Assembly: GCF_026625805.1 (NCBI RefSeq)
Contig: NZ_CP113064.1
Span: 2,272,657-2,336,656 of the forward strand
Reading direction: 5' to 3'
Source of the DNA: Brevundimonas sp. SL130
GTDB taxonomy: Bacteria > Pseudomonadota > Alphaproteobacteria > Caulobacterales > Caulobacteraceae
DNA: 64,000 nucleotides
The translations under genes were made by a program, and so were the position numbers. The first letter of the stretch is position 1. Every line of letters starts with the position of its first letter. Below are positions 3,768 through 40,014 of the stretch, piece after piece. Under the pieces are notes generated by a model. It did no database searches. It was given only the letters and a program-made list of their open reading frames with translations, and had not been told where the DNA came from.

Positions 3768-4991
3768 ATGCTGTACCGTCTTGAACTCGAGAACTTCTAC
3801 TCTGTCCGCGATCAGCAGGTCATCGACGTGACCGTCGCTCCGAACGTACCGGATGACGAGGACAGATTCGGGCCTATTTTTACGGGTGCCACCGACCGTG
3901 CCCCCAAGGTGCTGGTCCTTTACGGACCCAATGCGTCGGGCAAAACGACCATCCTGCGCGCCTTGGAATTCGTCGCGATCTTCATCCGAGACAGCGCCCA
4001 AACGAACGGACCTGGCTTTCCGTGCCAGCGCTTCAACGACGACGAATGTTCCAACCGCCCGATCCGGCTCGCTGTCGAGTTCGGCGGCACAATGGATTTA
4101 TCGGAGGTGGTCGTCGAACGCGCTGAACACGGACTCGACGTCGAACATGGGCTCTATCGCTATGAACTGGAACTCAACGTGGTCGATGGCACGCCTGTGT
4201 CCGTTCGACTAGAAGCTCTGCGCCAGAAGCCACTCGGCAAGGGCAAGTGGCAGAGAGTGTTCGAGCGCATTGAGGGCGACGTCCAAGGTTCAAAGACCTT
4301 CGCCATTTCCGGCTATCGGCATCTGCTCAACACCCTGAAACCGAACGTCTCGGTGATCTCCTCCTTCGCCCAGTTTGGACACCCGACGGCGGAGTTGTTC
4401 GCAGATGTCGCAAGGACGGTCTATTCGAACATCGGGCGACAAGTACTAGGCGACGAGGGCATCCTCAACATCTTCCGGCAATCTTCGGACTTGATAAACC
4501 GGGTCACACGCGACCTAAACCGGATTGACGTCGGCATTGAGGGCATGCGCTTTGTCGATACACCGACCGGCCCGTTAGCGATGTTCAAGCACTCCGGCCT
4601 GACGCTCGAAATGCCTTGGCAGCTCCAGAGCGACGGGACCCGTTCTTTCATCCGTGCCTTCCCTTATCTGGCGCTGGCGCTGGAGCGCGGCGGCGTGGCG
4701 ATCCTGGATGAGTTTGACACCATGATACACGCTGTGGTCCTGCCCGACATTCTGAGGTGGTTCTACGACAAGCAAGTCCGGAATCAGGAGGACGCCCAAG
4801 CTTGGATCAGTGTACATTCTGCCTCGCTCCTCGATGACCTAGTCAAGGAACAGGTGATCTTGTGCGAGAAGGATGCGCTGGGTCGAACTCACGTCTTCAG
4901 CCTCATGGATGTTAAGGCCGTGCGGCGCGATGAGAACCTGTACAAAAAATACCTGAGCGGTGCGTTCGGCGCGCTCCCTCATATCGGATGA
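3768..4991 (+). CDS. AAA-family ATPase, AbiLi/RloA-like (COG1106 type)
   Basis: A 407-aa ABC/SMC-like ATPase and probable sensor or motor subunit of a two-gene defence cassette. The N-terminal LENFYSVRD is typical of these ATPases. Walker A is GPNASGKT (53-60), a signature-like QSDGTR lies at 287-292, Walker B is AILDEFD (311-317), and a switch histidine sits in SVHSASLLDD (His350). The C-terminal YLSGAFGALP (395-404) matches the YLxGxxGxxP end common in COG1106 proteins. The stop overlaps the RloB start by 4 bp (ATGA), so the two are co-translated. Base composition is visibly less GC-rich than neighbouring genes. The anti-phage role is inferred from family and pairing. Confidence 0.85.
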   Translation: MLYRLELENFYSVRDQQVIDVTVAPNVPDDEDRFGPIFTGATDRAPKVLVLYGPNASGKTTILRALEFVAIFIRDSAQTNGPGFPCQRFNDDECSNRPIRLAVEFGGTMDLSEVVVERAEHGLDVEHGLYRYELELNVVDGTPVSVRLEALRQKPLGKGKWQRVFERIEGDVQGSKTFAISGYRHLLNTLKPNVSVISSFAQFGHPTAELFADVARTVYSNIGRQVLGDEGILNIFRQSSDLINRVTRDLNRIDVGIEGMRFVDTPTGPLAMFKHSGLTLEMPWQLQSDGTRSFIRAFPYLALALERGGVAILDEFDTMIHAVVLPDILRWFYDKQVRNQEDAQAWISVHSASLLDDLVKEQVILCEKDALGRTHVFSLMDVKAVRRDENLYKKYLSGAFGALPHIG

Positions 4992-5551
4992 GCCGACGCC
5001 CGCCACATATTCCACAGCGGACGCCCATCTTCGTGGGATGCGAGGGTGAGTCCGAGGCCGCCTACGTCGCACTCTTACAAGACCTGTCGCTGGCGAATGG
5101 CGCACATGTTCATGTTCACATCGAAGCTCTCACGCCCGGCGCCGGCGACCCGTTGGCGCGCGTAGAACGAGCGATCGCCCGTCTGGATAGGTTGCGGGGG
5201 CGTCGGACACCGTTTGCCCACGCCTTCATCCTGCTGGACTCCGATCAACTGCAGTTAAGCCGTGACCGGGCCGAACGAGCCCGGCGCGAAGCCGACGCCT
5301 TTGGCCTAAACATGATCTGGCAAGATCCCTGTCACGAGGCTCTACTGCTACGGCATCTGGAAGGCCGCACCAACCGCCGACCGATGACTAGCCCACTATC
5401 GCTTCAAGCACTCCAGCGAGATTGGCCGGATTATCACAAACCGATGAGTCGACATGGCCTTCGACAGCGACTGGATTTAGCCGCCGTTCGCCGTGCCGGT
5501 GAAAGTCATCCCGACCTTTCGGCTCTACTCGCAGTTCTTGGCCTGCTTTAG
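4988..5551 (+). CDS. RloB-family protein (Toprim-like, AbiLii-type partner)
   Basis: A 187-aa protein of the RloB family, usually encoded beside an AAA ATPase and likely the effector of the pair. The N-terminal CEGESE (18-23) and the acidic LLDSDQ (83-87) resemble the metal-binding Glu and DxD motifs of Toprim-like nucleases. The block PCHEALLLRHLEG (114-126) corresponds to the PCFExWLLxHF motif typical of RloB. It starts inside the ATPase stop codon (ATGA overlap) and ends 2 bp before the phosphatase gene at 5554. Nuclease activity is an inference from motif positions. Confidence 0.82.
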   Translation: MSRRPPHIPQRTPIFVGCEGESEAAYVALLQDLSLANGAHVHVHIEALTPGAGDPLARVERAIARLDRLRGRRTPFAHAFILLDSDQLQLSRDRAERARREADAFGLNMIWQDPCHEALLLRHLEGRTNRRPMTSPLSLQALQRDWPDYHKPMSRHGLRQRLDLAAVRRAGESHPDLSALLAVLGLL

Positions 5552-5553
5552 CC

Positions 5554-6024
5554 ATGCCCTCCATCCTCTTCGTCTGCCTCGGCAACATCTGTCGCTCCCC
5601 CCTCGCCGAGGCCGCCCTCCGCGCCGAGGCCCAACGCCTGCGCTTCGATCTGATCGTCGAGTCCGCCGGCACGGGGAACTGGCATGTCGGCCATCCGCCC
5701 GATCCGCGCGCCCAGGCCGTGGCGCGCAAACATGGGATCGATATTTCCGGCTATCAGGGCCGGCAGGTGACGCCGGCGGACTTCCGCCGCTTCACCCACC
5801 TCATCGCCCTGGACCACGACAACCTGGCCAATCTCCGCCGGATTCAACCCGCCGACGCGGTCGCCGAACTCAGCCTGCTGCTCGACCACGTGCCCGGCCG
5901 CGAGGGCCAGGCCGTGACCGATCCCTATTTCGGCGACGACGCCGGGTTCGAGGTCACCTGGGCCGAGGTTACGGCTGCGGCGGAACAGCTGGCGGCGCGG
6001 CTTCGGGCGTCTCCCGTCCCGTGA
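5554..6024 (+). CDS. Low-molecular-weight protein-tyrosine phosphatase
   Basis: A 156-aa cytosolic phosphatase of the LMW-PTP family, which removes phosphate from tyrosine residues through a cysteinyl intermediate. The P-loop CLGNICRS places the nucleophile at Cys8 and the phosphate-binding Arg at 14. The general acid is Asp123 in VTDPYFGD. The length is typical. The start lies 2 bp after the RloB stop, so translation could be coupled although the gene looks like core genome. Its last 56 bp overlap the convergent small membrane gene. Confidence 0.93.
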   Translation: MPSILFVCLGNICRSPLAEAALRAEAQRLRFDLIVESAGTGNWHVGHPPDPRAQAVARKHGIDISGYQGRQVTPADFRRFTHLIALDHDNLANLRRIQPADAVAELSLLLDHVPGREGQAVTDPYFGDDAGFEVTWAEVTAAAEQLAARLRASPVP

Positions 6025-6295
6025 TCTTGCGCCAGATCCGCTTGCGCGCCTCGACCACCGACACCCCCAGCAGGGCCGCCGTGGTCCAGAACAGGGCCTC
6101 GGTCGTCACCGCCGCGACGATGGCCAGGGTGATGCGCGCGCCGCGATCCAGATCCAGATAGAGGCCCAGCCCGAACCCGGCCCAGGCGCACACCGCCGCC
6201 ACCAGCAGGGCCGCCGCCAGGGCCTTCAAAAATCCCTTGCCGCGCGTCAGCACGCCCTTTTTCGGCGTCTCTACGGTCCCTGTCTCAATGGTCAT
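5969..6295 (-). CDS. Small two-helix membrane protein, function unknown
   Basis: A 108-aa protein with two hydrophobic helices, one following KGFLKALAAALLVA and one following RITLAIVAAVTT, and a Pro/Ala-rich tail; no family recognised. The start at 6295 is supported by AAAGGAG eight bases upstream. Longer readings of this frame run through the opposite sigma-factor gene and are discarded. It is divergent from that sigma gene with about 100 bp between starts. The 3' end overlaps the phosphatase gene by 56 bp tail to tail. Confidence 0.72.
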   Translation of the reverse strand: MTIETGTVETPKKGVLTRGKGFLKALAAALLVAAVCAWAGFGLGLYLDLDRGARITLAIVAAVTTEALFWTTAALLGVSVVEARKRIWRKITGRETPEAAPPAVPPQP

Positions 6296-6393
6296 GGCGA
6301 ACTCCTTTGTTTTTCTACGCCTGACCTGAAAGTCTCGGCCCTTCCTCGAGTCTTTCATCCCGACCGACGATTTTTTCACGGAGACCGCCGCGC

Positions 6394-6908
6394 TTGGGAC
6401 GCGACCAGACCTTTGAGGCCCTGCTGGCCGAGCACGGCGGCATGCTGCGCCGCATCGCCTCGGCCTATGAGGCGGATCGCGAGCGGCGGCGCGAGCTGGA
6501 GCAGGACATATTGCTGGCCGTCTGGCGCGCCCTGCCCAAACACCGGGGCGAGGCCCCCTGCGCCATTTCATCGCCCGCGTGGCCCACAACCGCGCCGTCA
6601 CCCATGTGGCGCGCGAGGCGGCCGAGCCGCGCCGCCAACCTCTGGACGAGGCCGCCCCGTCGGACGCCCCCACCCCGCACGAGGCGGCCGAGACGCGGGA
6701 TCTGCACGACCGACTGGGCCAGGCGGTGCGCGCCCTGCCCCTGTCGCTGCGCCAGCCGGCTCTATTGACCCTGGAAGGTTTCGCCCCGGCCGAGATCGCC
6801 GACATGCTGGGGATGAACCCCAACACCGTCTCCATCCGCCTGACCCGCGCCAAGGCCGCGCTGCGTGAGGCCCTGAACCCCGCTCCATCGCAAGAGGTCC
6901 GCTCATGA
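6394..6908 (+). pseudogene. ECF-type RNA polymerase sigma factor, split by a 1-bp frameshift
   Basis: The first reading frame (TTG at 6394) encodes sigma region 2 (LLAEHGGMLRRIASAYE, then DILLAVWRALPKHRGEA). The sense then jumps to another frame that reads RHFIARVAHNRAVTHV and continues into region 4 (LPLSLRQPALLTLEGF, then MLGMNPNTVSIRLTRAKAAL) to the stop at 6908. Adding one C to the run of five C at 6554-6558 restores a continuous protein of about 171 aa (EAPLRHFIARV). It is either a genuine inactivation, a phase-variable homopolymer, or a sequencing error. Its end overlaps the downstream membrane partner by 4 bp (ATGA). Confidence 0.85.
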
Positions 6909-7477
6909 CCCGCCCTGATGACGACTGGACCGACCTGACCCAGGCCTGGACCGAGACCCCCGACCTCGAACCCCGGCTGGACGCCGGTTTCATCCGGTCC
7001 TTACGCCGCCGCGACCGGCTGGCCCGGCTCAATTTCTGGCTGGAGATGGGCGGCGGGGTCGTCGTGATGGGGGTCATGGGCTGGGCCGTGCGTCGCGGCG
7101 TCCCCCTGCCCGCCGCCGGCGCCGCCCTGGTCTTCGTCCTGTTCGCCATGGGCCTGACCCTATGGTCCCGGCGCGGCCATCCCGGCCTGTTGACCGAGAC
7201 ACCTCAGGCCGTGCTGCGCTCGGCCCTGGGCCAGGCCCGCACCGGCTACCGCTGGGCTCTATCCGGGGTGGCGATCAGCGTCGCGGCCATGATCTTCCAG
7301 GGGATCATCCTGACGACGGTCGATCCCGCGCGGGGGCATATCGAGGCCGTCACAACCGCAGTGTTCGCCTTCCTGCTGATCTGCATCGGCTACTACCTGC
7401 GCCACGCCCGCCGCTGCCGCCGTCGGATGGCGGCGCATCGGGCGGCGCTGGAGGCGTTGGAAATGGACGCCTCGTAG
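6905..7477 (+). CDS. Membrane protein paired with ECF sigma factor (possible anti-sigma)
   Basis: A 190-aa protein with a soluble N-terminal stretch (about 1-45), two membrane helices around 48-90, and two more around 120-165, ending in a basic, Arg-rich segment. The start overlaps the sigma-factor stop (ATGA), the usual arrangement for a sigma/anti-sigma pair. The cytosolic N-terminus contains no HxxxCxxC zinc anti-sigma motif, so the anti-sigma role is inferred from position only. No named family is recognised. Confidence 0.65.
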   Translation: MTRPDDDWTDLTQAWTETPDLEPRLDAGFIRSLRRRDRLARLNFWLEMGGGVVVMGVMGWAVRRGVPLPAAGAALVFVLFAMGLTLWSRRGHPGLLTETPQAVLRSALGQARTGYRWALSGVAISVAAMIFQGIILTTVDPARGHIEAVTTAVFAFLLICIGYYLRHARRCRRRMAAHRAALEALEMDAS

Positions 7478-7484
7478 GTCCGGA

Positions 7485-8048
7485 TTAGGCGACCTGGAGG
7501 AACAGCACCCGCGCCGCCCCATAATCCCGCGCGTCCAACCGTTGATAGCCGGGCGTGTCGATGTCCGGCTCGTCCGACCCGCGCTCGAACACCACCAGGG
7601 CGCCGGGCTTCAGCCAGTTGCCCTCCAGCAGCCGCGCCAGCGTCTGCTCCCCCAGCCCCTTGCCATAGGGCGGGTCCAGGAAGGCGATGTCGAAGGCCTC
7701 GCCGTCTGATCCGGGCCGCACGCCCAGGTCGGTCGCGCTGCGCCGATGAACGCGCGTGCGGCCCATCACTCCATAGGCGTCGGCGTTCTCGCGGATCGCG
7801 CCCCGCGCCCCGTCATCGGTCTCGACGAACAGGCAGAAGCCCGCCCCCCGGCTGATGGCCTCGAAGCCCAGAGCGCCCGATCCGGCGTACAGGTCGATGA
7901 CCCGCGCGCCGTTCAGGCTCTCGGCCCAGGCGGCGTGTTCCAGCACATTGAACACGGCCTGCCGCGCCCGGTCAGAGGTCGGGCGCGTGCCCTGCCCCTC
8001 GGGCGCGACGATGGCCCGGCCCTTCAGGCTTCCCGCAACGATCCGCAA
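7485..8048 (-). CDS. rsmD: 16S rRNA (guanine966-N2)-methyltransferase RsmD
   Basis: A 187-aa class I methyltransferase that methylates G966 of 16S rRNA during 30S assembly. It begins MRIVAGSLKGR, typical of the family. The SAM-binding motif is DLYAGSGALG (52-61) and the N-methylation catalytic motif is DPPY (125-128). It lies 3 bp after the RluB-type synthase on the same strand and is very likely co-transcribed with it. Confidence 0.95.
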   Translation of the reverse strand: MRIVAGSLKGRAIVAPEGQGTRPTSDRARQAVFNVLEHAAWAESLNGARVIDLYAGSGALGFEAISRGAGFCLFVETDDGARGAIRENADAYGVMGRTRVHRRSATDLGVRPGSDGEAFDIAFLDPPYGKGLGEQTLARLLEGNWLKPGALVVFERGSDEPDIDTPGYQRLDARDYGAARVLFLQVA

Positions 8049-8051
8049 GCC

Positions 8052-9626
8052 TCAGCTCCGGGGCGTGCGGGGCTTGCCCCCCGGCGCGCGGCCGCCCGGC
8101 TTGAGCCCGCTGGTGCCCGAAGGTCCGGCCGGCTTGCCGCCGCCTGTCCGTGGCGGCCGGGTTTCGCGTCCGCTGGGCGAGGCTGCGCCGAAGCCGCGGG
8201 GTTTGAACTCCCGCTTGCCCGCGTCGGCGCCAGCCGTGCGCGGCTTGTACTCGCGCTTGGGCCCGTCGCTGCTGCGAGCCGGAGCCCCCTCGCGCGGCGT
8301 ATAGGCGCGAGCGGGACGGTCGCCCTCTTCACGCGGCTTGTAGACGCGGGCCGGACGTTCGCCGTCGGTCGGCGCGCCTTCGCGCGGCTTGAAGGTCTTC
8401 TTCGGATGGACGGTCTTGGGCGTCGCCTTGGCCCAGCCTTCCTTCTTGGGCGGACGTTCGCGGCGCTCGACCGCGTCGGCCTGGGCCGTTTCGGCGGCGC
8501 GGACGCGGCTGGGCTTGCGCGACGGGTCCGACATGGCCGAGCCCGAGTTCCCCTTGAGGATCGGCGTGGACACGCGACGACCGGGGATGGGCGCAGGCGT
8601 CTCGACCGTATTGCCGGTCGGCAGGTTCTCGGGCCGGATGTAGTCGGCCAGCAGTTCGCGGATCACGCGCGGCCCGATTTCTTCGACCGAGCCGACGGGC
8701 AGGACGTCAAGACGGAACGGGCCATAGGCCAGGCGGATCAGCCGGTTGACCGTCAGGCCGACAGACTCCAGCACCTTGCGGACTTCGCGGTTCTTGCCCT
8801 CGGTGATCGAGACCGAGATCCACAGGTTGCTCGGCGTGCGGCCGTCCTCGGATTTGGACTCCTTGGCCTTGTCCAGCGTCGCCACCATGGGACCGTAGGA
8901 GATGCCCTCCACGACGGCGCCGTTCTTCAGCTCGTCCAGTTGCGCCTGGGTGATCTTGCCCCGCGCCCGCGCCCGGTACTGACGCACCAGCCCGGCCGAG
9001 GGCAGCTCCATCGCCCGGCTCAGTTCGCCGTCGTTGGTCAGCAGCAGCAGGCCTTCGGTCGACAGATCCAGCCGTCCGATGGAGATCACGCGCGGCAGGC
9101 CGGCCGGCAGGGCGTCGAACACCGTCGGACGTCCGGTCGGATCCCGATGGCTGGTCAGCAGGCCCGCAGGCTTGTGATAGCGCCAGACGCGCGTCGCCTG
9201 GGTCGAGCCGATGGGCTTGCCGTCCACAGTAATCACGTCGTCGCGCGTCACCAGGGTGGCGGGCGTGTCCAGGATGCGGCCGTTGACCGCCACCTTGCCC
9301 AGACCGATCAGCCGTTCGACCTCGCGCCGCGAGGCGATGCCGGCGCGGGCCATGGTCTTGGCGATTCGCTCGGCGCGCAGCGGCGTGTCGGACTTGCCCG
9401 AACCGGACGACGGCTTGCCGTCCTTGCCGGCGCGCGGCCGGTCGCCTCGGTCCGGCTTGTCGCCGAACCGCTTGGGGCCGTCGTCGCGAGGGCTGCGCGG
9501 CTTGTCGCCGAAGGAGGTCTTCCCGTCGCCGCTCTTGCGAGGACCGGAGGATTTAAAGGGCCGAGGCGACCGTTCGTCTTGACGGGCGCGGGGCTTCTTG
9601 TCGTTGTCGTCTGTATGGCGGACCAT
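8052..9626 (-). CDS. RluB/RsuA-type rRNA pseudouridine synthase with long charged tails
   Basis: This 524-aa enzyme likely converts a 23S rRNA uridine to pseudouridine. A Lys/Arg/Ser-rich disordered head of about 75 aa precedes an S4 RNA-binding domain (AKTMARAGIASRREVERLI) and the RsuA-family catalytic core with GRLDLSTEGLLLLTNDG, where Asp is the nucleophile. After the core, about 180 aa of low-complexity basic sequence repeat KPRE-like units (FKPREG, YKPREE, YTPREG, YKPRTA, FKPRGF). The start at 9626 gives MVRHTDDND and overlaps the divergent tadA start by 12 bp; a start further inside the disordered head is possible. Confidence 0.9.
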   Translation of the reverse strand: MVRHTDDNDKKPRARQDERSPRPFKSSGPRKSGDGKTSFGDKPRSPRDDGPKRFGDKPDRGDRPRAGKDGKPSSGSGKSDTPLRAERIAKTMARAGIASRREVERLIGLGKVAVNGRILDTPATLVTRDDVITVDGKPIGSTQATRVWRYHKPAGLLTSHRDPTGRPTVFDALPAGLPRVISIGRLDLSTEGLLLLTNDGELSRAMELPSAGLVRQYRARARGKITQAQLDELKNGAVVEGISYGPMVATLDKAKESKSEDGRTPSNLWISVSITEGKNREVRKVLESVGLTVNRLIRLAYGPFRLDVLPVGSVEEIGPRVIRELLADYIRPENLPTGNTVETPAPIPGRRVSTPILKGNSGSAMSDPSRKPSRVRAAETAQADAVERRERPPKKEGWAKATPKTVHPKKTFKPREGAPTDGERPARVYKPREEGDRPARAYTPREGAPARSSDGPKREYKPRTAGADAGKREFKPRGFGAASPSGRETRPPRTGGGKPAGPSGTSGLKPGGRAPGGKPRTPRS

Positions 9627-10097
9627 GATGAGCGGTTCATGCGCATGGCGCTGGACCAAGCGCAAGCGGCGGCGGACGCAGGAGAGGTGCCTGTAGGTGC
9701 AATTCTTGTCGATCCGGCCTCAGGTGAGGTAATTTCGACCGGCGCCAACGGCCCGATCGGCGCCCACGACCCTACGGCCCATGCCGAGATCGTCGCTCTG
9801 CGCCGCGCGGCGACCGCGTTGGAGAACTATCGGCTGACCGGCTTGACCCTCTATGTGACGCTCGAACCCTGCGCCATGTGCGCCGGCGCCATAAGCCACG
9901 CCCGAATCGGGCGCGTCGTCTGGGCCGCCGACGATCCGAAGGGCGGCGCAGTGATCCACGGCCCGCGCCTGTTCGAACAACCCACCTGCCACTGGCGCCC
10001 GGCGACGGACTCGGGTCTGTTGGCGCAAGAGGCGTCCGCGCTGCTGAAATCCTTCTTCCGTCAACGGCGGGGAACGGCGGCGAGCGGCGCACGTTAG
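9615..10097 (+). CDS. tadA: tRNA-specific adenosine deaminase TadA
   Basis: A 160-aa zinc deaminase that converts adenosine 34 to inosine in tRNA-Arg(ACG). The zinc and catalytic motifs are HAE (56-58) and PCAMC (85-89). The N-terminus ERFMRMALDQA aligns with the family start, supporting the ATG at 9615. The reading frame is open far upstream, but only antisense to rsmD and rluB. The start codon lies inside the opposite gene's first codons, so the two promoters must lie in each other's coding region. Confidence 0.94.
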   Translation: MADHDERFMRMALDQAQAAADAGEVPVGAILVDPASGEVISTGANGPIGAHDPTAHAEIVALRRAATALENYRLTGLTLYVTLEPCAMCAGAISHARIGRVVWAADDPKGGAVIHGPRLFEQPTCHWRPATDSGLLAQEASALLKSFFRQRRGTAASGAR

Positions 10098-10136
10098 ATC
10101 GCCGCGCCAAGCGGCGCCGTTGTGAGGAGTATCGCC

Positions 10137-10562
10137 TTGTCCAAGCCGGGCCTGCCGCCGTCGATCATGTTCAGCGGTCTCGCCGCCGCCCTTCTCCTGA
10201 CGGCCTGCGGTCCCGACCCCGACAAGGCCCCCGCCACCGGTGACGAGGTCAAGGAGCGCGCCATCGAGGCCCAGACCGCCCGCCAGCGCACCGGCGCCGA
10301 GATCCAGGACCGCTCCCTGAACCGCGTCGTCCACACCGTCTATCTGTGCGACAACGGCGAACGCCTGTCGGTCGATTTCGACAACCCCCGCCAGATGGCC
10401 ACCATCCGCAACTCGTCCGGCGAGGCCACAGACCTGTATCAGGAGCGCGCCGCCGACGGCATCTGGTACCGCGCCTCCAACGTCGAACTGCGCGGCAAGG
10501 GCGTCCTGGCCACCTGGTCCGTCGAAGGCCGTCAGCCGACGCAGTGCCGCGCGGTGGATTAG
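10137..10562 (+). CDS. Lipoprotein with MliC-like (lysozyme inhibitor) domain
   Basis: A 141-aa predicted lipoprotein. The signal peptide ends in the lipobox LTAC (LLLTACGPD), so mature protein begins at Cys and is membrane-anchored. The C-terminal part (VYLCDNGERLSVDF to TQCRAVD) resembles the MliC/PliC c-type lysozyme inhibitor domain, with a Cys near each end that could pair. The TTG at 10137 is preferred because GAGGAG lies about 7 bases upstream; the in-frame GTG at 10122 has no such site. The exact inhibitory role is inferred from the domain resemblance. Confidence 0.75.
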   Translation: MSKPGLPPSIMFSGLAAALLLTACGPDPDKAPATGDEVKERAIEAQTARQRTGAEIQDRSLNRVVHTVYLCDNGERLSVDFDNPRQMATIRNSSGEATDLYQERAADGIWYRASNVELRGKGVLATWSVEGRQPTQCRAVD

Positions 10563-11146
10563 GCGAAACCCGCCAGCCGTTGATCCAAGCCGTCACGAAC
10601 CACCGGCCAGTCATCGTCAATCACCGCGAACACCGCCGTGTCCCGCGCGCGCCCAGTCCAGGTGATCTTGTGCTTCCTCAGAACGCCTTCGGCCTTGGCG
10701 CCCAGCTTGAGGATCGCCGCCTGGCTCCGGGCGTTGAGGGCGTCGGTGATGATCTCGACCCGCACCGCGCCTGCGTTGAAGGCGTGGCCAAGCAACAGCC
10801 GTTTGCAGGCCGGATTGATCGGTCCGCCGCGCACTTCGGGCCGATAAAAGGTCGAGCCGATCTCGCAGCGGCGATAGGCCGGGTTGATCTCGTACAGGCT
10901 GGTCGTGCCGACCACCGCCCCGTCTGAGCGCCGCCGCACCGCATAGGCGATCCGAGTCCCGGCCCGCATGGCCGTCAGCGCGCTCTCCCACCAGCCGTCG
11001 AAATACTCACCCTGGGCCGAGCCGACCATGGCCGCCCAGGCCTCGGGATCGCAGTCCAGCGCCGCGCGGACCTCGTCTTTCAGCCTGTCCTCGAACGGCT
11101 CCAGCCGCACGAACCGATCCTCCAGCGGGACCTTAGCGATCCGCAT
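10559..11146 (-). CDS. GNAT acetyltransferase, RimJ/RimL type
   Basis: A 195-aa N-acetyltransferase of the GNAT fold. Core segments include VVGTTSLYEINPAYRRCEIG, a 'GP.NP.CK.LLL' helix before the acetyl-CoA loop, and the strand VRVEIITDALNARSQAAILKLG characteristic of RimJ/RimL relatives. The substrate is unknown. The ATG at 11146 overlaps the aroB stop (TGATG), placing it as the last gene of aroK-aroB-GNAT. The 3' end overlaps the convergent lipoprotein by 4 bp. Confidence 0.85.
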   Translation of the reverse strand: MRIAKVPLEDRFVRLEPFEDRLKDEVRAALDCDPEAWAAMVGSAQGEYFDGWWESALTAMRAGTRIAYAVRRRSDGAVVGTTSLYEINPAYRRCEIGSTFYRPEVRGGPINPACKRLLLGHAFNAGAVRVEIITDALNARSQAAILKLGAKAEGVLRKHKITWTGRARDTAVFAVIDDDWPVVRDGLDQRLAGFA

Positions 11147-12252
11147 CACGCCGTCGCGCCTTCCTCGATCAGGAAGGCGCGCACCTTGTCCGCATCCACG
11201 CCCTTGGCCACAAAGGCCTGGCCGACGCCGCGCGCCAGGATCAGGGTCAGCGCCCCGCCCTCGGCCTTCTTGTCCCCCGCCATCAGGGCCAACAGCCGGT
11301 CGGCCGCAAACGACCCCGCCTGATCCAGCCGCGTCGGCAAGCCCGCAGCTGCAACCACCGCCTCGACCCGCGCCACGTCCTCAGCCGAACACAGTCCCTC
11401 GCGCGCCGAATAGCGGAAGGCCATACAGCACCCCAAGGCCACGGCTTCGCCGTGCGCCAGCGCGCCTTCGTCGAACCCGACCTCGGTCTCCACCGCATGG
11501 CCGAAGGTGTGGCCCAGGTTCAGCAGGGCGCGACGCCCCGCCTCCTTCTCGTCTTCGCCGACCACCGCGCTCTTGATCTCGACCGAGCGGATCACCGCAC
11601 GCTCCAGCGCCGCCGGATCGCCGGCCGCGCCCGCGGCTCCCTCGCCCGCCAGCCAGTCGAAGAAGGCTGCGTCGCAAATCAGCCCGTGTTTCAGCACCTC
11701 GGCCCAGCCGGACTTTACCTGACGCGCCGGCAGGGTCGCCAGCACGTCTATGTCGGCCAGCACCAGTCGCGGCTGATGGAAAGCCCCGACCAGGTTCTTG
11801 CCGCGTGGCGTGTCGATGGCCGTCTTGCCGCCAACGGACGAGTCCACCTGCGCCAACAGAGTCGTTGGGATCTGAACGAAGTCGATGCCGCGCATGAACA
11901 GCGCCGCCGCCAGACCGGCCAAATCCCCCACGACCCCGCCGCCCAGGGCGATGACCACGTCCTTGCGGTCCAGCCCGATCTCCAGCAGCCGGTCCAGAAC
12001 GCGCTCAAGCTCGGCAAAGGACTTCGACCCCTCGCCCGCCGGCACGGCCACGATCTCGCTCTTCACGCCCGCCGCCGTCAGCGACGCCGTCAGCGCCTCG
12101 GCATGGATGCCCGCCACCGTCTCGTCGGTGACGATGACGGTACGGCCCTTGGCCAGGGGGGCGATCCGTTCACCCGCCTGAACCAGCAGTCCACGCCCCA
12201 CCATCACGTCATAGGCCGCAAAGGCCCCGCCGCTGACCGGAATGATTGTCAC
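11146..12252 (-). CDS. aroB: 3-dehydroquinate synthase
   Basis: A 368-aa NAD-dependent enzyme of the shikimate pathway that converts DAHP to 3-dehydroquinate. Recognised by [21 protein letters not shown], the [19 protein letters not shown] block and the metal-binding GHTFGHAVE motif. Length is normal. It starts inside the aroK stop (ATGA overlap), so the two consecutive shikimate steps are co-translated. Confidence 0.97.
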
Positions 12253-12815
12253 GTCTTCGTCTCCGCGCGCCGTCTCTGGCGCCAGTGCCGGCGCAGGTTC
12301 TTGTGAATGGCGTCCACCGCCTGACCGTGAGAGCCCTGCCCAACGTCCACGGCGACGTCCGCCTCGCCATAGATTGGATAGCGGACCTCGGCCAAGTCGG
12401 TCAGCACCGTCAGCGGGTCCTTGCCGCGCAGGAGCGGCCGGGTGTCGCGCCGCGCCACCCGTTCGGCGATGACCTTCAGATCAGCCCTCAGCCAGACCGT
12501 GTCGGCCCGTTCCTTCAGCAGAGCCCGCGTCTCCGCATTCATCATCGCCCCGCCGCCGGTGGCGAGAACGATGGGCGGCCCCTCCAGCAGGCGGCGGATC
12601 ACCCGCGCCTCGCCGGCCCGGAACTCTTCTTCCCCCAAAGCAGCGAAGATTTCGGACACGGTCATTCCCGCCGCTGATTCGATCTCCACATCCCCGTCGG
12701 CGAAGGGCAGCCTCAGTCGGTTAGCCAGTCGGCGGCCCACCGAAGATTTGCCCACCCCCATCAGGCCGACCAGGGCTATGGTGCGGGTCGGTCCCGGATT
12801 CGCGCGCCGCCTCAT
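12249..12815 (-). CDS. aroK: Shikimate kinase
   Basis: A 188-aa P-loop kinase that phosphorylates shikimate. The Walker A is GLMGVGKSS (about 17-25), followed by DGDVEIE for shikimate binding and the ATGGGA block. The ATG at 12815 is chosen because GGAG lies a few bases upstream and the frame before it has no kinase character. It is first in an operon with aroB and the GNAT gene, divergent from xerD across about 125 bp. Confidence 0.95.
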
Positions 12816-36250: not shown

Positions 36251-36394
36251 TGGAAGTCTCCTCTGTCTGACAAGGTGGAGAAGACGCCGTTTCGGCCGCC
36301 CCGCGTTAGGGCGATCCGAGCGTTCTCTTGTACAATCCTGTCAAACTCTGCTCGTCGGCTTGCGCGAACGTGACGACGAGCGTTGGATGCGTTC

Positions 36395-37300
36395 ATGAGC
36401 CTCTTGCCCGAAATGACCGACATCGTCGCGCGCCACGCGCCGCCGGACCTGTCGCGCTCCGCCGTGCCTGGCCTGCGCCTGTATGGCAGCGACGCGCAGA
36501 CGCGAATGATCGCCGTCGCCTATGATCCCATGCTGTGCCTGGTGGTGTGCGGGGCCAAACAGACGATCCTGGGCGAGATGGTCTATTCCTATCGGGCCGG
36601 GGACTGCCTGGTGGTGTCGGCCGAACTGCCGGTGTGCGGCAGCATCGTAGAGGCGCCCTATCGCGCCCTCAGCTTCGACCTGAACCCCGCGACCATCGCC
36701 GGCCTGATGCTGGAGATCGACGCCCCTGCCGCCTCGGATCAGCCGCCGCCATCCGGCATCCATGTGACGCGGTTGGAGGGCGAACTGCTGGAGCCCATGG
36801 CCCGCCTGTTGCGCCTTCTGGACCGGCCCGCAGAGATCGCCGTAATGACGCCGATGATCGAGCGCGAGCTGGTCTGGCGGCTGCTGCACAGCCGGTACGC
36901 CGCCACCGTGCGTCAGATCGGCTCGACCGAAAGCCGCCTGTCGGGCGTCAGCCGCGCCATCAATTGGATCCGCGCCCACTACGCCGAACCAATGCGGCTG
37001 GAGGCCCTGTCGGACCTGGCGGGCATGAGCCTGTCGACCTTCCACCGGCATTTCCGCACGGTGACGACCATGAGCCCGCTGCAGTTCCACAAACAGGTGC
37101 GGCTGCGAGAGGCGCGCGCCCGACTGTTGAGCGGCGGCGACGGCGCAGCCGAAACCGGCTTCGCCGTCGGCTATGACAGCCCGTCCCAGTTCAGCCGCGA
37201 ATACGCCCGCCAGTTCGGCCTGCCGCCAGGTCGCGACGCGGCGCGGATGCGCGAAAGCCTGACGGTCGGCAGACCGTTCGTCCCCAACGGCTGCATCTGA
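36395..37300 (+). CDS. AraC-family transcriptional regulator
   Basis: A regulator of about 301 aa. The N-terminal sensing domain (VYSYRAGDCLVVSAELPVC) belongs to the AraC N-terminal type common in regulators of adjacent oxidoreductases. The C-terminal two-HTH domain reads LEALSDLAGMSLSTFHRHFR and AETGFAVGYDSPSQFSREYARQFG. The ATG at 36395 is taken; TTG 36383 in frame is an alternative. It probably controls the divergent SDR. An 8-bp palindrome TTGTACAA at 36328 lies between them. Confidence 0.9.
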   Translation: MSLLPEMTDIVARHAPPDLSRSAVPGLRLYGSDAQTRMIAVAYDPMLCLVVCGAKQTILGEMVYSYRAGDCLVVSAELPVCGSIVEAPYRALSFDLNPATIAGLMLEIDAPAASDQPPPSGIHVTRLEGELLEPMARLLRLLDRPAEIAVMTPMIERELVWRLLHSRYAATVRQIGSTESRLSGVSRAINWIRAHYAEPMRLEALSDLAGMSLSTFHRHFRTVTTMSPLQFHKQVRLREARARLLSGGDGAAETGFAVGYDSPSQFSREYARQFGLPPGRDAARMRESLTVGRPFVPNGCI

Positions 37301-37347
37301 TCCCTGGCGCCTTGCCGCAGGTCGAGAGCAGCGGTCATGGGCCGGAC

Positions 37348-38013
37348 ATGACCCTGTTCCAGCCCTTCCTCGTCCTGCACATCTCGACCGGCATGGCCGC
37401 CGTCCTGGTTGGCTTCGGCCCCCTGCTGACCGCAAAGGGTTCGCGCGCGCATCGGCTGTGGGGCCGCGCCTTTGTGGTGCTGATGACGATCCTGCTGGCC
37501 TGCGCCTGGGTGATGACGGCTTTGCACTTCAACACCTATTTCCTCGCCCTCTCGGCCACGGCCTCGCTGACGCTGTTTTCAGGCGTAAGGGTGTTGGGGC
37601 GCAAACGGCCCGACATCCACCCCCAGGACCGGGCCAGGCCGATGGACTGGGCGGCGACGCTCGGTGCCCTGGGCGTCGGCGTCTGGGTGCTGGCCTTGAT
37701 CGCCCTGGGCCGCTCGGACGGCCCGCCCGTGGTCTCTGAAGCCTTGGCCTATGCGGCGCTGTCGGTCGCGGCGTGGGACCTGTGGCGGTTTTTGCGTCCA
37801 CGAGACTGGCCATTCTCGCCGGACTTGTGGAGATACGAGCATCTGGTGAAGATGCTGAGCGCCTATGCTGCGGTCCTGAGCGCCTTTTCCGGCAATTTCC
37901 TGACCGTCCTGCCCCAGCCCTGGAGCCAGCTCTGGCCGTCCGTCCTGTTCCCGTTGATCGCCACACTCTGGACGGCGACCCTGATCCTGCGGCGGCGCGC
38001 CCAGCCGGCATGA
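37348..38013 (+). CDS. DUF2306-type multi-pass membrane protein
   Basis: A 221-aa protein with about six to seven hydrophobic helices, starting MTLFQPFLVLHISTGMAAVL; the histidine and the GSRAHRLWGRAFV loop are typical of DUF2306. The function of that family is not known. An in-frame start at 37312 is possible. Its stop overlaps the next gene's start (ATGA), linking it to a membrane-bound LytTR regulator. Confidence 0.78.
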   Translation: MTLFQPFLVLHISTGMAAVLVGFGPLLTAKGSRAHRLWGRAFVVLMTILLACAWVMTALHFNTYFLALSATASLTLFSGVRVLGRKRPDIHPQDRARPMDWAATLGALGVGVWVLALIALGRSDGPPVVSEALAYAALSVAAWDLWRFLRPRDWPFSPDLWRYEHLVKMLSAYAAVLSAFSGNFLTVLPQPWSQLWPSVLFPLIATLWTATLILRRRAQPA

Positions 38014-38825
38014 GGAGGCCGACGGTCGCCGTCGTGATGGCGGGATTCACCGCCTATTCCTACGCGGCGACGGTGGCGTCGGTGGCCTGGTATCTTCGGC
38101 GGGACCGGCCGGAACTGGCGATCTCGACATCATTGCTGTGGGCCGGCCTGTCCTATGCGCCCTGGCTGGGCGTCGCCGCCCTGGTCTGGGGTGCGATCCG
38201 GCTGTGGGGATTGGGGTGGAAGACAGCAGGCGTCCTGAGCGCAGCGACAATTCTCGTCGTGCCCCTGGTCTCGGCCTTCGACACACGGCTTGACCTCGCC
38301 TTTCTGAACAGGGTCGTCATGCCGGGCGGCTGGATGGAGAGGACCATCGACCGGCTGCCGATCGCCCTGCTGCTCTACACGGCGATCATCGCCGCCGGTA
38401 TGGCCGCCGCCCATTGGCGCAAGGCGCGTGAAGCCCAAGACCGGATCGACCGCATCACCCAAGCCCTGGCCGTGGCCAAAGACCTGCGGGACGACGCTCG
38501 CCTGCTCGTCTCGACCGGACGAAACCGCACTTCGGTCGATCTGCGGGCCGTGGAGTGGTTCGCCTCGGCAGGCAATTATGTGGTCGTGAACTGGGACGGG
38601 CGCGAGGGCCTGGTGCGTGACACCCTTCAGGCGCTGGAGACACGTCTGGATACGCGCCTGTTTGCCCGCATCCACCGTTCCACCCTGGTCAATCTGGCGC
38701 GGGTCGAGGGGGTGCAGCCCCTGTCGGACGGATCCTGGCGGCTGACGATGCACAGCGGCGCAGAACTGGTGGTCAGCCGCACCTATCGCGACGCCGTTCT
38801 GGTACGGCTGGGTCGCCCCCTTTAG
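38010..38825 (+). CDS. Membrane-anchored LytTR transcriptional regulator
   Basis: A 271-aa protein with four predicted transmembrane helices (about 6-27, 42-66, 73-90, 116-134), a short helical linker, and a C-terminal LytTR DNA-binding domain (about 165-268, including FARIHRSTLVNLARV at 218-232 and LVVSRTYRDAVL). There is no receiver domain, so it would sense through its own membrane part or the co-encoded DUF2306 protein. It overlaps the preceding gene by 4 bp and the convergent methyltransferase by 4 bp. Confidence 0.87.
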   Translation: MRRPTVAVVMAGFTAYSYAATVASVAWYLRRDRPELAISTSLLWAGLSYAPWLGVAALVWGAIRLWGLGWKTAGVLSAATILVVPLVSAFDTRLDLAFLNRVVMPGGWMERTIDRLPIALLLYTAIIAAGMAAAHWRKAREAQDRIDRITQALAVAKDLRDDARLLVSTGRNRTSVDLRAVEWFASAGNYVVVNWDGREGLVRDTLQALETRLDTRLFARIHRSTLVNLARVEGVQPLSDGSWRLTMHSGAELVVSRTYRDAVLVRLGRPL

Positions 38826-39448
38826 GGCAGGCGCGCCAGAACCCGCAGCCAGCCCTCGGCCTGGGCCAGGTCGATGGCTTCGAACAGCGGGATCGCCAAC
38901 AGGAAGACCAGACCGTCGCGGATGGTCGTCAGGAAGAAGGACGGCCGCACCGACAGTTCCGCCTCGTCGCGCCACAGCGAAAACCGCGGTATGAACCGCA
39001 GCGTGCGGGCCTTGTACGCCATATAGTCGGCGCCGAAAGCCGCGCCCAGCCAGGCCTCCTCACGGCGCACCGTCAGATAAAACACCGCCAGAGACGCGAG
39101 AGTGAACAGCATGGCCAGGGTGAGGCTGCCACTCTGGGCGCCGATGCCAAAGGCGCCGAAGAAGCTGAAAATATAGAGCGGATTGCGACTGATCGAATAG
39201 GGACCGCGCGACACGATCTCGGCCTTCTTGCGTCCGCCGATATAGAGCGAGCACCAGGCGCGGCCGACGATGGCGAATATGATGGCGGCCAGGCCGACGG
39301 CCTCGACGCCTTCATGAACGGGACTATTCGGACCAGAGGCCGACTGAGACACCATGGTCAAGCCGACCAGGACCACCAAGGCGACGAGAACAGCGCCCTT
39401 GCGGATCTTCTGAACCGCCTGAAGGTCGAACGCTTGGATCATAGCCAT
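38822..39448 (-). CDS. Membrane methyltransferase, isoprenylcysteine/phospholipid type
   Basis: A 208-aa integral membrane protein of the ICMT/PEMT family. The diagnostic motif is GPYSISRNPLYIFSFFG, followed by RREEAWLGAAFGADYMAYKARTLRFIP, which binds SAM at the membrane face. The target is unknown. The ATG at 39448 has GGAG six bases upstream; the longer frame upstream has no membrane-methyltransferase character. Confidence 0.85.
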   Translation of the reverse strand: MAMIQAFDLQAVQKIRKGAVLVALVVLVGLTMVSQSASGPNSPVHEGVEAVGLAAIIFAIVGRAWCSLYIGGRKKAEIVSRGPYSISRNPLYIFSFFGAFGIGAQSGSLTLAMLFTLASLAVFYLTVRREEAWLGAAFGADYMAYKARTLRFIPRFSLWRDEAELSVRPSFFLTTIRDGLVFLLAIPLFEAIDLAQAEGWLRVLARLP

Positions 39449-39552
39449 AAATCGCTCCGGATTGTCCCCAAATCCAAGCGCCGGTTTCACCGGGCGAGCA
39501 AGCGGTATGTTTGCGAGCGAAAATCGGTCTCGAATGGCCGGAGACGCAAGGG

Positions 39553-40014
39553 TCAGAGGCTCGAAAGCAAATCCGCCAACTCTGCGGGCCAGATCGTCTC
39601 CGTCGAGGCCCGGATATCGGCGAGGCTCCACCAGCGATGCGCCACCAGGATGTTCCGTTCCTCCTCGGTCCAGCCGGTGGAGGACAGGTCGAACGCCTCG
39701 GTGCGAAGCAGGAAAAACCGCTGATCCACATCGGCCATACGGCCGTCGGGCAGGCGAAAACTGACCCTGACCCGGCCGACCTGGGGGCCGGGATCGTCGA
39801 TGATCAGGCCGGTTTCCTCAACCAGTTCGCGGCGCGCGGCGTCCTCATAGGTTTCGCCCGGTTCGCAGCCGCCGCCGGGCGTGGCCCAGAAGGCCGTGCC
39901 GGTCAGAGGCCCGTCGGAAAAGACGAAATGGAACAGCAGCACCCGCCCCTGCCCGTCCAGAATCAGCCAGCGCGAGGTCGGCCGCTCGGGAAGGACAGGC
40001 GCGACTGCGCTCAT
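39553..40014 (-). CDS. Nudix hydrolase
   Basis: A 153-aa hydrolase of nucleoside-diphosphate-linked substrates. The Nudix box is complete: GGGCEPGETYEDAARRELVEETGL with the metal-binding REXXEE set. It lies 4 bp downstream of der on the same strand. The substrate is not predictable. Confidence 0.93.
   Translation of the reverse strand: MSAVAPVLPERPTSRWLILDGQGRVLLFHFVFSDGPLTGTAFWATPGGGCEPGETYEDAARRELVEETGLIIDDPGPQVGRVRVSFRLPDGRMADVDQRFFLLRTEAFDLSSTGWTEEERNILVAHRWWSLADIRASTETIWPAELADLLSSL

Follow-up and report, generated by a model that had tools for sequence, protein, structure and literature searches.

Does a DUF2306 membrane protein gene that runs into the gene of a membrane-bound LytTR regulator share a function with it, and if so, which of the two acts on the other? 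Such a pair lies in a 64,000-nucleotide stretch of the Brevundimonas sp. SL130 genome, hereafter called the window. The original prediction had read the overlap as the mark of a sensory unit. From comparison of the sequences we incline to a somewhat different reading, in which the two genes would form an autoregulated membrane circuit and the LytTR protein would control DUF2306. Below, we set out the conservation of the pair, a predicted operator, related clades and protein models, together with the rival explanations on which each of them bears.

The overlapping gene pair

The overlap itself was confirmed: the 3' end of the DUF2306 gene and the start of the LytTR gene have 4 bp (ATGA) in common. 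The features of the locus are collected in Table 1.

Table 1. Position of the gene pair, its predicted operator and its neighbours within the window.
Feature	Position	Strand	Details
AraC-type gene	36383-37300	+	Upstream of the pair, same strand
Predicted LytTR operator	37277..37304	+	Box 1 TTCGTCCC (37277-37284); 12-bp spacer CAACGGCTGCAT, with GCTGC inside; box 2 CTGATCCC (37297-37304)
DUF2306 membrane protein gene	37348..38013	+	221 aa; ATG 37348; TGA 38011-38013
Membrane-anchored LytTR regulator gene	38010..38825	+	271 aa; ATG 38010; stop ending 38825
LytTR protein, predicted membrane helices	38025-38480	+	Residues 6-157
LytTR protein, LytTR domain	38499-38813	+	Residues 164-268, approximately
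PEMT/ICMT-like gene	38822-39631 (ORF)	convergent	Downstream; overlaps the LytTR gene by 4 bp

In a Pfam scan of the 221-aa protein, DUF2306 (PF10067) was the sole family above its curated cut-off, with 36.3 bits against 31.6, and DUF6954 and CcmF_C appeared as rows below cut-off. The LytTR match (PF04397) scored 74.9 bits against a cut-off of 22.6 and covered residues 175-263 of the second protein, from whose Pfam matches an MHYT domain was absent at E values up to 1. NCBIfam gave no match for DUF2306, and for the LytTR protein its LytR and BtsR models stayed far below their cut-offs. PADLOC returned nothing for the LytTR protein; its 14-bit match to DUF2306 (E 0.0076) was taken as chance.

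Conservation and movement of the pair

We use "type A" for full-profile matches to the DUF2306 kind or the LytTR kind of the window. Across 101 Brevundimonas genomes, 17 held both type A proteins, adjacent in every case, 84 held neither, and none held a single one. In these 17 genomes the DUF2306 matches scored 323.6-397.9 bits (next match 56) and the LytTR matches 322-418.2 bits (next match 65.5). Among 99 genomes of the family, an identical set of 10 held both proteins (348-393 and 396-453 bits, respectively). Four more family genomes held a diverged LytTR protein (236.5-268 bits), each time with a DUF2306 gene directly 5' of it. All nine strong type A DUF2306 matches in a sample of 150 genomes from the order fell inside the family. 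Eight diverged DUF2306 rows group with type A, and for five of them (L135, L136, L139, L142 and L150) the locus, taken with flanks of about 1.5 kb, contained no LytTR gene.

A species-level scan with the DUF2306 alignment as query (84,980 species, one genome per species) returned 30 DUF2306 loci, a set from which distant kin may escape because the pattern step demands exact conserved peptides. A LytTR gene adjoins DUF2306 in 29 of the 30, downstream on the same strand in 28 and divergently in one (L080), and all 29 paired loci are titled Caulobacter, Brevundimonas, Caulobacteraceae or Caulobacterales. The original prediction would have taken the pairing for likely chance had it been absent from other genomes. 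The pairing recurs elsewhere, and DUF2306 with its membrane LytTR regulator stands as a real conserved unit. The sole unpaired locus comes from an Armatimonadota MAG (L082, 4874-5575). Its DUF2306 is 40% identical to that of the window, no LytTR gene lies within the 11.5-kb locus, and it may represent distant kin, transfer or contamination.

Could the two genes be unrelated and have stayed together merely by shared descent of their neighbourhood, with no functional link? Strong type A matches are found only in Caulobacteraceae or Caulobacterales, which is what such a history would leave behind, and for this reason the pairing counts given above are not independent. The neighbourhood, however, differs widely from locus to locus. 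The immediate neighbour families of 35 type A loci, each from a different genome, fell into 21 combinations (from locus maps, with missed pair genes added and a spurious antisense family dropped; L036, at a contig end, is without an upstream neighbour). When combinations with a common wider neighbourhood were merged by hand, the unrelated chromosomal sites came to about nine or more; one of them, in Caulobacter, adjoins purD and a response regulator gene. The direct repeat described below recurs across these sites in all but one of the loci, and separate DUF2306 clades also lie beside LytTR genes. We strongly disfavour the shared-descent explanation, which we regard as barely credible; the comparison of sites indicates that the DUF2306-LytTR pair moves as one unit. 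The Caulobacter pair is possibly CC_0294/CC_0295, as we presume.

The neighbour families bear equally on a second explanation, namely that the pair forms the last part of an operon headed by the AraC-type gene and is chiefly under the control of that upstream regulator. The AraC-type gene shares the strand of the pair and leaves a gap of 47 bp to the DUF2306 ATG, as such an operon would have it, but the AraC family is found upstream at only 3 of the 35 type A loci, and we consider this explanation very unlikely. Downstream, the PEMT/ICMT-like family is the neighbour at 5 of the 35.

A third explanation is the one favoured by the original prediction, an LRS-like sensory complex. Here DUF2306 would bind the LytTR protein at its membrane domain and either hold it inactive or signal to it, and relief of the hold would switch on both genes, giving autoregulation. 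Strict co-occurrence across the genus agrees with such a complex, and so do the stop and start codons, which overlap or touch in several of the same-strand loci inspected (16 in all). Translational coupling is lost, however, in L047/L080, a single locus in which the pair has been inverted to a divergent layout with the genes still together. Taken with the evidence below, we see the LRS-like complex as possible rather than probable.

A predicted operator upstream of DUF2306

The predicted operator stops 43 bp short of the DUF2306 start codon and takes in the final codons of the upstream AraC-type gene, its stop included, so that one stretch of DNA may be both coding sequence and operator. A direct repeat TTCG[T/C]CCC-N12-TTCG[T/C]CCC, matched at 13 or more of 16 positions, was present upstream of DUF2306 in 34 of the 35 type A loci. 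At the same threshold, block-shuffled sequence gave 0.7% and real 130-bp windows from 31 loci gave 9/3470. Since the consensus had been read from the same sequences that it scored, we also ran a motif-free test: 8-mer repeats with at least 7 of 8 matches occurred at a period of 20 in 23 of the 35 regions, and at the other periods from 13 to 30 in 0-4 of 35. The distance from the end of box 2 to the start was 41-44 bp in 18 of the 19 Brevundimonas loci and 67 bp in L047. For 14 of the 16 other loci, box 2 ended 46-54 bp before the position used, which is not always the start codon. Upstream of DUF2306 in the inverted pair L047/L080, a 13/16 repeat is still found. Paired diverged loci from other genera gave the repeat in L133 (14/16) and L134 (15/16); it was absent from the stretch examined of L137 (10/16), a paired diverged locus as well.

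We searched for further sites with a pattern fitted to the window site and its kin. In the window's own genome, the window site was the sole exact (0-mismatch) match. Over the 101 genus genomes, a tolerance of one mismatch gave 13 matches, 12 of them directly before a type A pair, and the reversed pattern gave 7. At this tolerance 12 of the 17 type A genomes match, the other five having more diverged repeats. The one genus match that does not precede a type A pair (1 mismatch; G033:C35:21284-21311, L226) is inside a predicted ORF. With up to three mismatches, the own genome had 19 matches against 34 for the reversed control, and weak extra targets are beyond judgement because the control exceeds the pattern. 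Overall, the regulon search in the own genome and the genus found nothing beyond the own operon above the reversed-pattern control. By these patterns, the LytTR regulator would have one clear target, its own operon headed by DUF2306, and the direct repeat is predicted to be a LytTR operator layout.

Other clades of DUF2306 and LytTR

Counting the best 150 LytTR matches in a genus-wide Pfam search, at least 40 of 81 DUF2306 matches lay no more than 3 kb from a LytTR match, at least 15 of these neighbours on the same strand and at least 25 divergent. By our estimate, chance would give well under one such case, a 3-Mb genome having two to three LytTR genes. The association is uncommon across Alphaproteobacteria at large: of 190 genomes from the class, 42 encode DUF2306 (counting that of the window), and a LytTR gene was in the locus for 4 of the 40 DUF2306 matches fetched out of 48 outside the window's genome.

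A tree of 130 DUF2306 domains, built by a quick method, grouped type A with its diverged kin (43 rows, SH-aLRT 98). Two further clades have a divergent layout, the short type B (11 rows, SH-aLRT 94) and type C (12 rows, SH-aLRT 94), and L102, L120 and L122 are single class-level cases outside all three. LytTR genes were found in 11 of the 12 type C loci, the twelfth (L010) having none within its 2.2 kb, and in none of the next 13 best-scoring genus DUF2306 loci (L015-L027, 1.5-kb flanks).

The tree of 92 LytTR domains was built from few columns and many of its forks are unresolved. Type A and diverged type A LytTR domains formed one group (31 rows, 81/91) with no unpaired row, type C formed one clade (100/98), and within type B the DUF2306-linked and unlinked rows were intermixed; the row L047_10311, labelled A in this tree, is a second, unpaired LytTR of L047. 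According to this grouping, type A LytTR proteins are always paired among the rows sampled and type B proteins are not. A type A group made up of DUF2306-paired rows only is a further point for an LRS-like complex. Against that complex stand the type B LytTR genes without DUF2306, one of which (L220) encodes a LytTR domain identical to that of the DUF2306-linked L191.

Thirteen loci (L205, L208, L213-L223) hold a type B LytTR gene without DUF2306, and in several of them the neighbours are genes for what we take to be TetR-like, DUF2141-like and Tat-like-signal proteins. In seven type B loci (L195-L201), an extra gene for an apparent small secreted protein, presumably DUF2141-like, lies between DUF2306 and LytTR. 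Outside the window, the own genome carries a second DUF2306/LytTR module, of the divergent type B (G000:C1:620223-621610, L001). In another genome of the genus, modules of both types, A and B, lie within about 8 kb of each other (L045, G060:C1:390000-407500, 4862-12289).

Types B and C have an intergenic repeat CGTTSRCGMA with a period of 21, in 12 of 21 regions for type B and in 7 of 11 for type C; three of the type B regions in this count (L028, L032 and L189) are overlong, their gene start having been misjudged. Type C also showed period 20 in 4 of 11 regions, and the remaining periods were found in 0-6 of 21 (type B) and 0-3 of 11 (type C). No clear repeat period was seen in the seven type B loci with the extra gene between. 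The only exact match of the type B pattern in the own genome, at 621048-621078, falls between the genes of the type B pair. With up to three mismatches, this pattern gave 58 matches in the own genome against 14 for its reversed control, one of them exact and one at 1 mismatch.

Structure prediction for the two proteins

The AlphaFold2 model of the LytTR protein (29 sequences, mean pLDDT 92.4) has four long helices at residues 6-32, 38-66, 70-99 and 116-157, and then, with residue 164, a LytTR fold. The PDB entry that matches it best is the LytTR domain 3d6w_B, with a TM-score (by target length) of 0.91. The four N-terminal helices are predicted to place the regulator in the membrane.

DUF2306 was modelled from 29 sequences with a mean pLDDT of 82.5; seven long helices are predicted, and comparison of the model with the PDB gave nothing convincing (Foldseek best E 0.35). 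A profile search of solved sequences with DUF2306 found nothing credible, its single row being a phosphatase at E 0.36. The best VIA-align match was a designed nanopore (Z 9.1). We also considered a heme/b561 identity by fold: 4o6y_B (Z 7.0, rmsd 5.6, 151 aligned) ties with unrelated helical proteins, and because this tool gives values such as Z 7.0 to helical models that have no true counterpart, we make no heme or b561 claim from the fold.

Over 130 homologous domains, three DUF2306 histidines are near-invariant: H11 (129/130), H35 (129/130) and H165 (130/130). The membrane region of the LytTR protein was searched for conserved His, Cys or Met and none was found, so any metal or heme site would belong to DUF2306. 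This confinement of cofactor-like residues to DUF2306 is also what an LRS-like complex would lead one to expect. A redox or heme role for DUF2306 is suggested by these conserved histidines only, no fold match having risen above noise. Positively charged loops of DUF2306 are at about residues 28-36, 85-97 and the C-terminus, which by the positive-inside rule suggests an N-out, C-in topology; this would bring H35 and H165 close to the cytoplasmic side, with H11 nearer the periplasm.

Discussion

The autoregulated circuit that we favour would work as follows. The membrane-bound LytTR protein would bind the direct repeat ahead of DUF2306 and set the level of DUF2306, as well as its own, in answer to a membrane-borne signal. 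DUF2306 would be the output of the circuit, probably a histidine-dependent (metal or heme) redox-type membrane protein. Its activity would alter the signal that the LytTR regulator reads and thereby close a homeostatic loop. As to polarity, we prefer activation from just upstream of a promoter for a short-leader or leaderless mRNA, with repression as the alternative. The most direct pointer to the DUF2306 gene as the regulator's target is the predicted operator before it, together with the divergent layouts in the other clades.

Within this pairing, DUF2306 may be either an enzyme kept in balance or the sensing part. The Armatimonadota DUF2306 without LytTR, the LytTR-free groups and the fungal protein PraC tilt us towards the effector reading (PMC12895699). 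PraC is a membrane protein of the same Pfam family, a likeness by family only; it is needed for epoxidation in pramanicin biosynthesis, and in the available text no link of PraC to LytTR is seen (PMC12895699). On the sensing side, DUF2306 would be a membrane sensor with a bound metal or heme and would gate the LytTR protein directly, reading for example redox, a diatomic gas or quinone state. The pair would then be a split CoxC, with sensor and regulator on separate chains and in control of their own operon. CoxC of Afipia carboxidovorans is a membrane-bound one-component LytTR regulator that binds direct repeats, as is predicted here (PMC11347149). CoxC senses CO with copper through a fused seven-segment MHYT domain, whereas here the seven-helix protein is a separate chain and the membrane domain of the LytTR protein is without conserved His, Cys or Met (PMC11347149). 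We hold such a directly gating sensor to be unlikely.

Comparison with LRS operons cuts both ways. Streptococcal LRS such as HdrRM and BrsRM are, like the window pair, two-gene units that join the gene of a LytTR regulator to that of a membrane protein (PMC6193735). Their direct repeats before the operon are mostly 12 bp apart (11-13), and here the spacer between the 8-bp boxes is also 12 bp; autoregulation has been shown for them and is predicted here (PMC6193735). This likeness in operator spacing and autoregulation counts for an LRS-like complex, in which DUF2306 would play the part of the LRS membrane protein that inhibits its regulator (PMC6193735). Against it, the gene order is opposite and the regulator itself is membrane-anchored: LRS encode a soluble regulator first, whereas here the regulator gene is downstream and its product has predicted membrane helices (PMC6193735). 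The membrane partner also differs, being mostly DUF3021 or DUF2154 in LRS (four of the five in S. mutans) and DUF2306 here (PMC6193735). The Bacteroides LRS-like operon Btheta7330_RS19920/RS19915 described by Zou et al. (2018) likewise has a membrane protein gene 5' of a LytTR regulator with multiple membrane segments, but that membrane protein carries an NfeD-like domain and DUF2154 rather than DUF2306 (PMC6193735).

The original prediction had singled out the membrane anchor of the LytTR domain as the unusual part, and in this it does not hold: earlier publications describe LRS and LRS-like operons as well as alphaproteobacterial LytTR regulators of the membrane (PMC13384398, PMC10269533, PMC11347149, PMC6193735). 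LytTR proteins of Caulobacter crescentus have been noted as membrane proteins (PMC13384398, PMC10269533). One of them, HigX, comes from the same bacterial order and has the architecture seen here, four membrane helices and a C-terminal LytTR domain (PMC13384398). HigX nearly always adjoins a COG4188 hydrolase gene and, in Caulobacter, ctrA, whereas the neighbours in the window are AraC-type, DUF2306 and PEMT genes; its ChIP motif is an inverted repeat, and it has many ChIP peaks (PMC13384398). The word DUF2306 is absent from the main text of the HigX paper (PMC13384398).

In the literature searched, which covered few subscription journals, the DUF2306-LytTR partnership and its operator appear new; DUF2306 and LytTR were found together there merely in a table of gene clusters. 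The first functional assignment in the widespread DUF2306 family is a step of a fungal pathway (PMC12895699). A dedicated regulator with a predicted operator would provide a handle on bacterial DUF2306, as whatever switches the promoter may reveal what DUF2306 handles. The pair would also be a proteobacterial counterpart to the LRS-like operons, in the cultured genera Caulobacter and Brevundimonas, which makes it directly testable whether a membrane LytTR regulator takes its signal from a partner protein or straight from the membrane.
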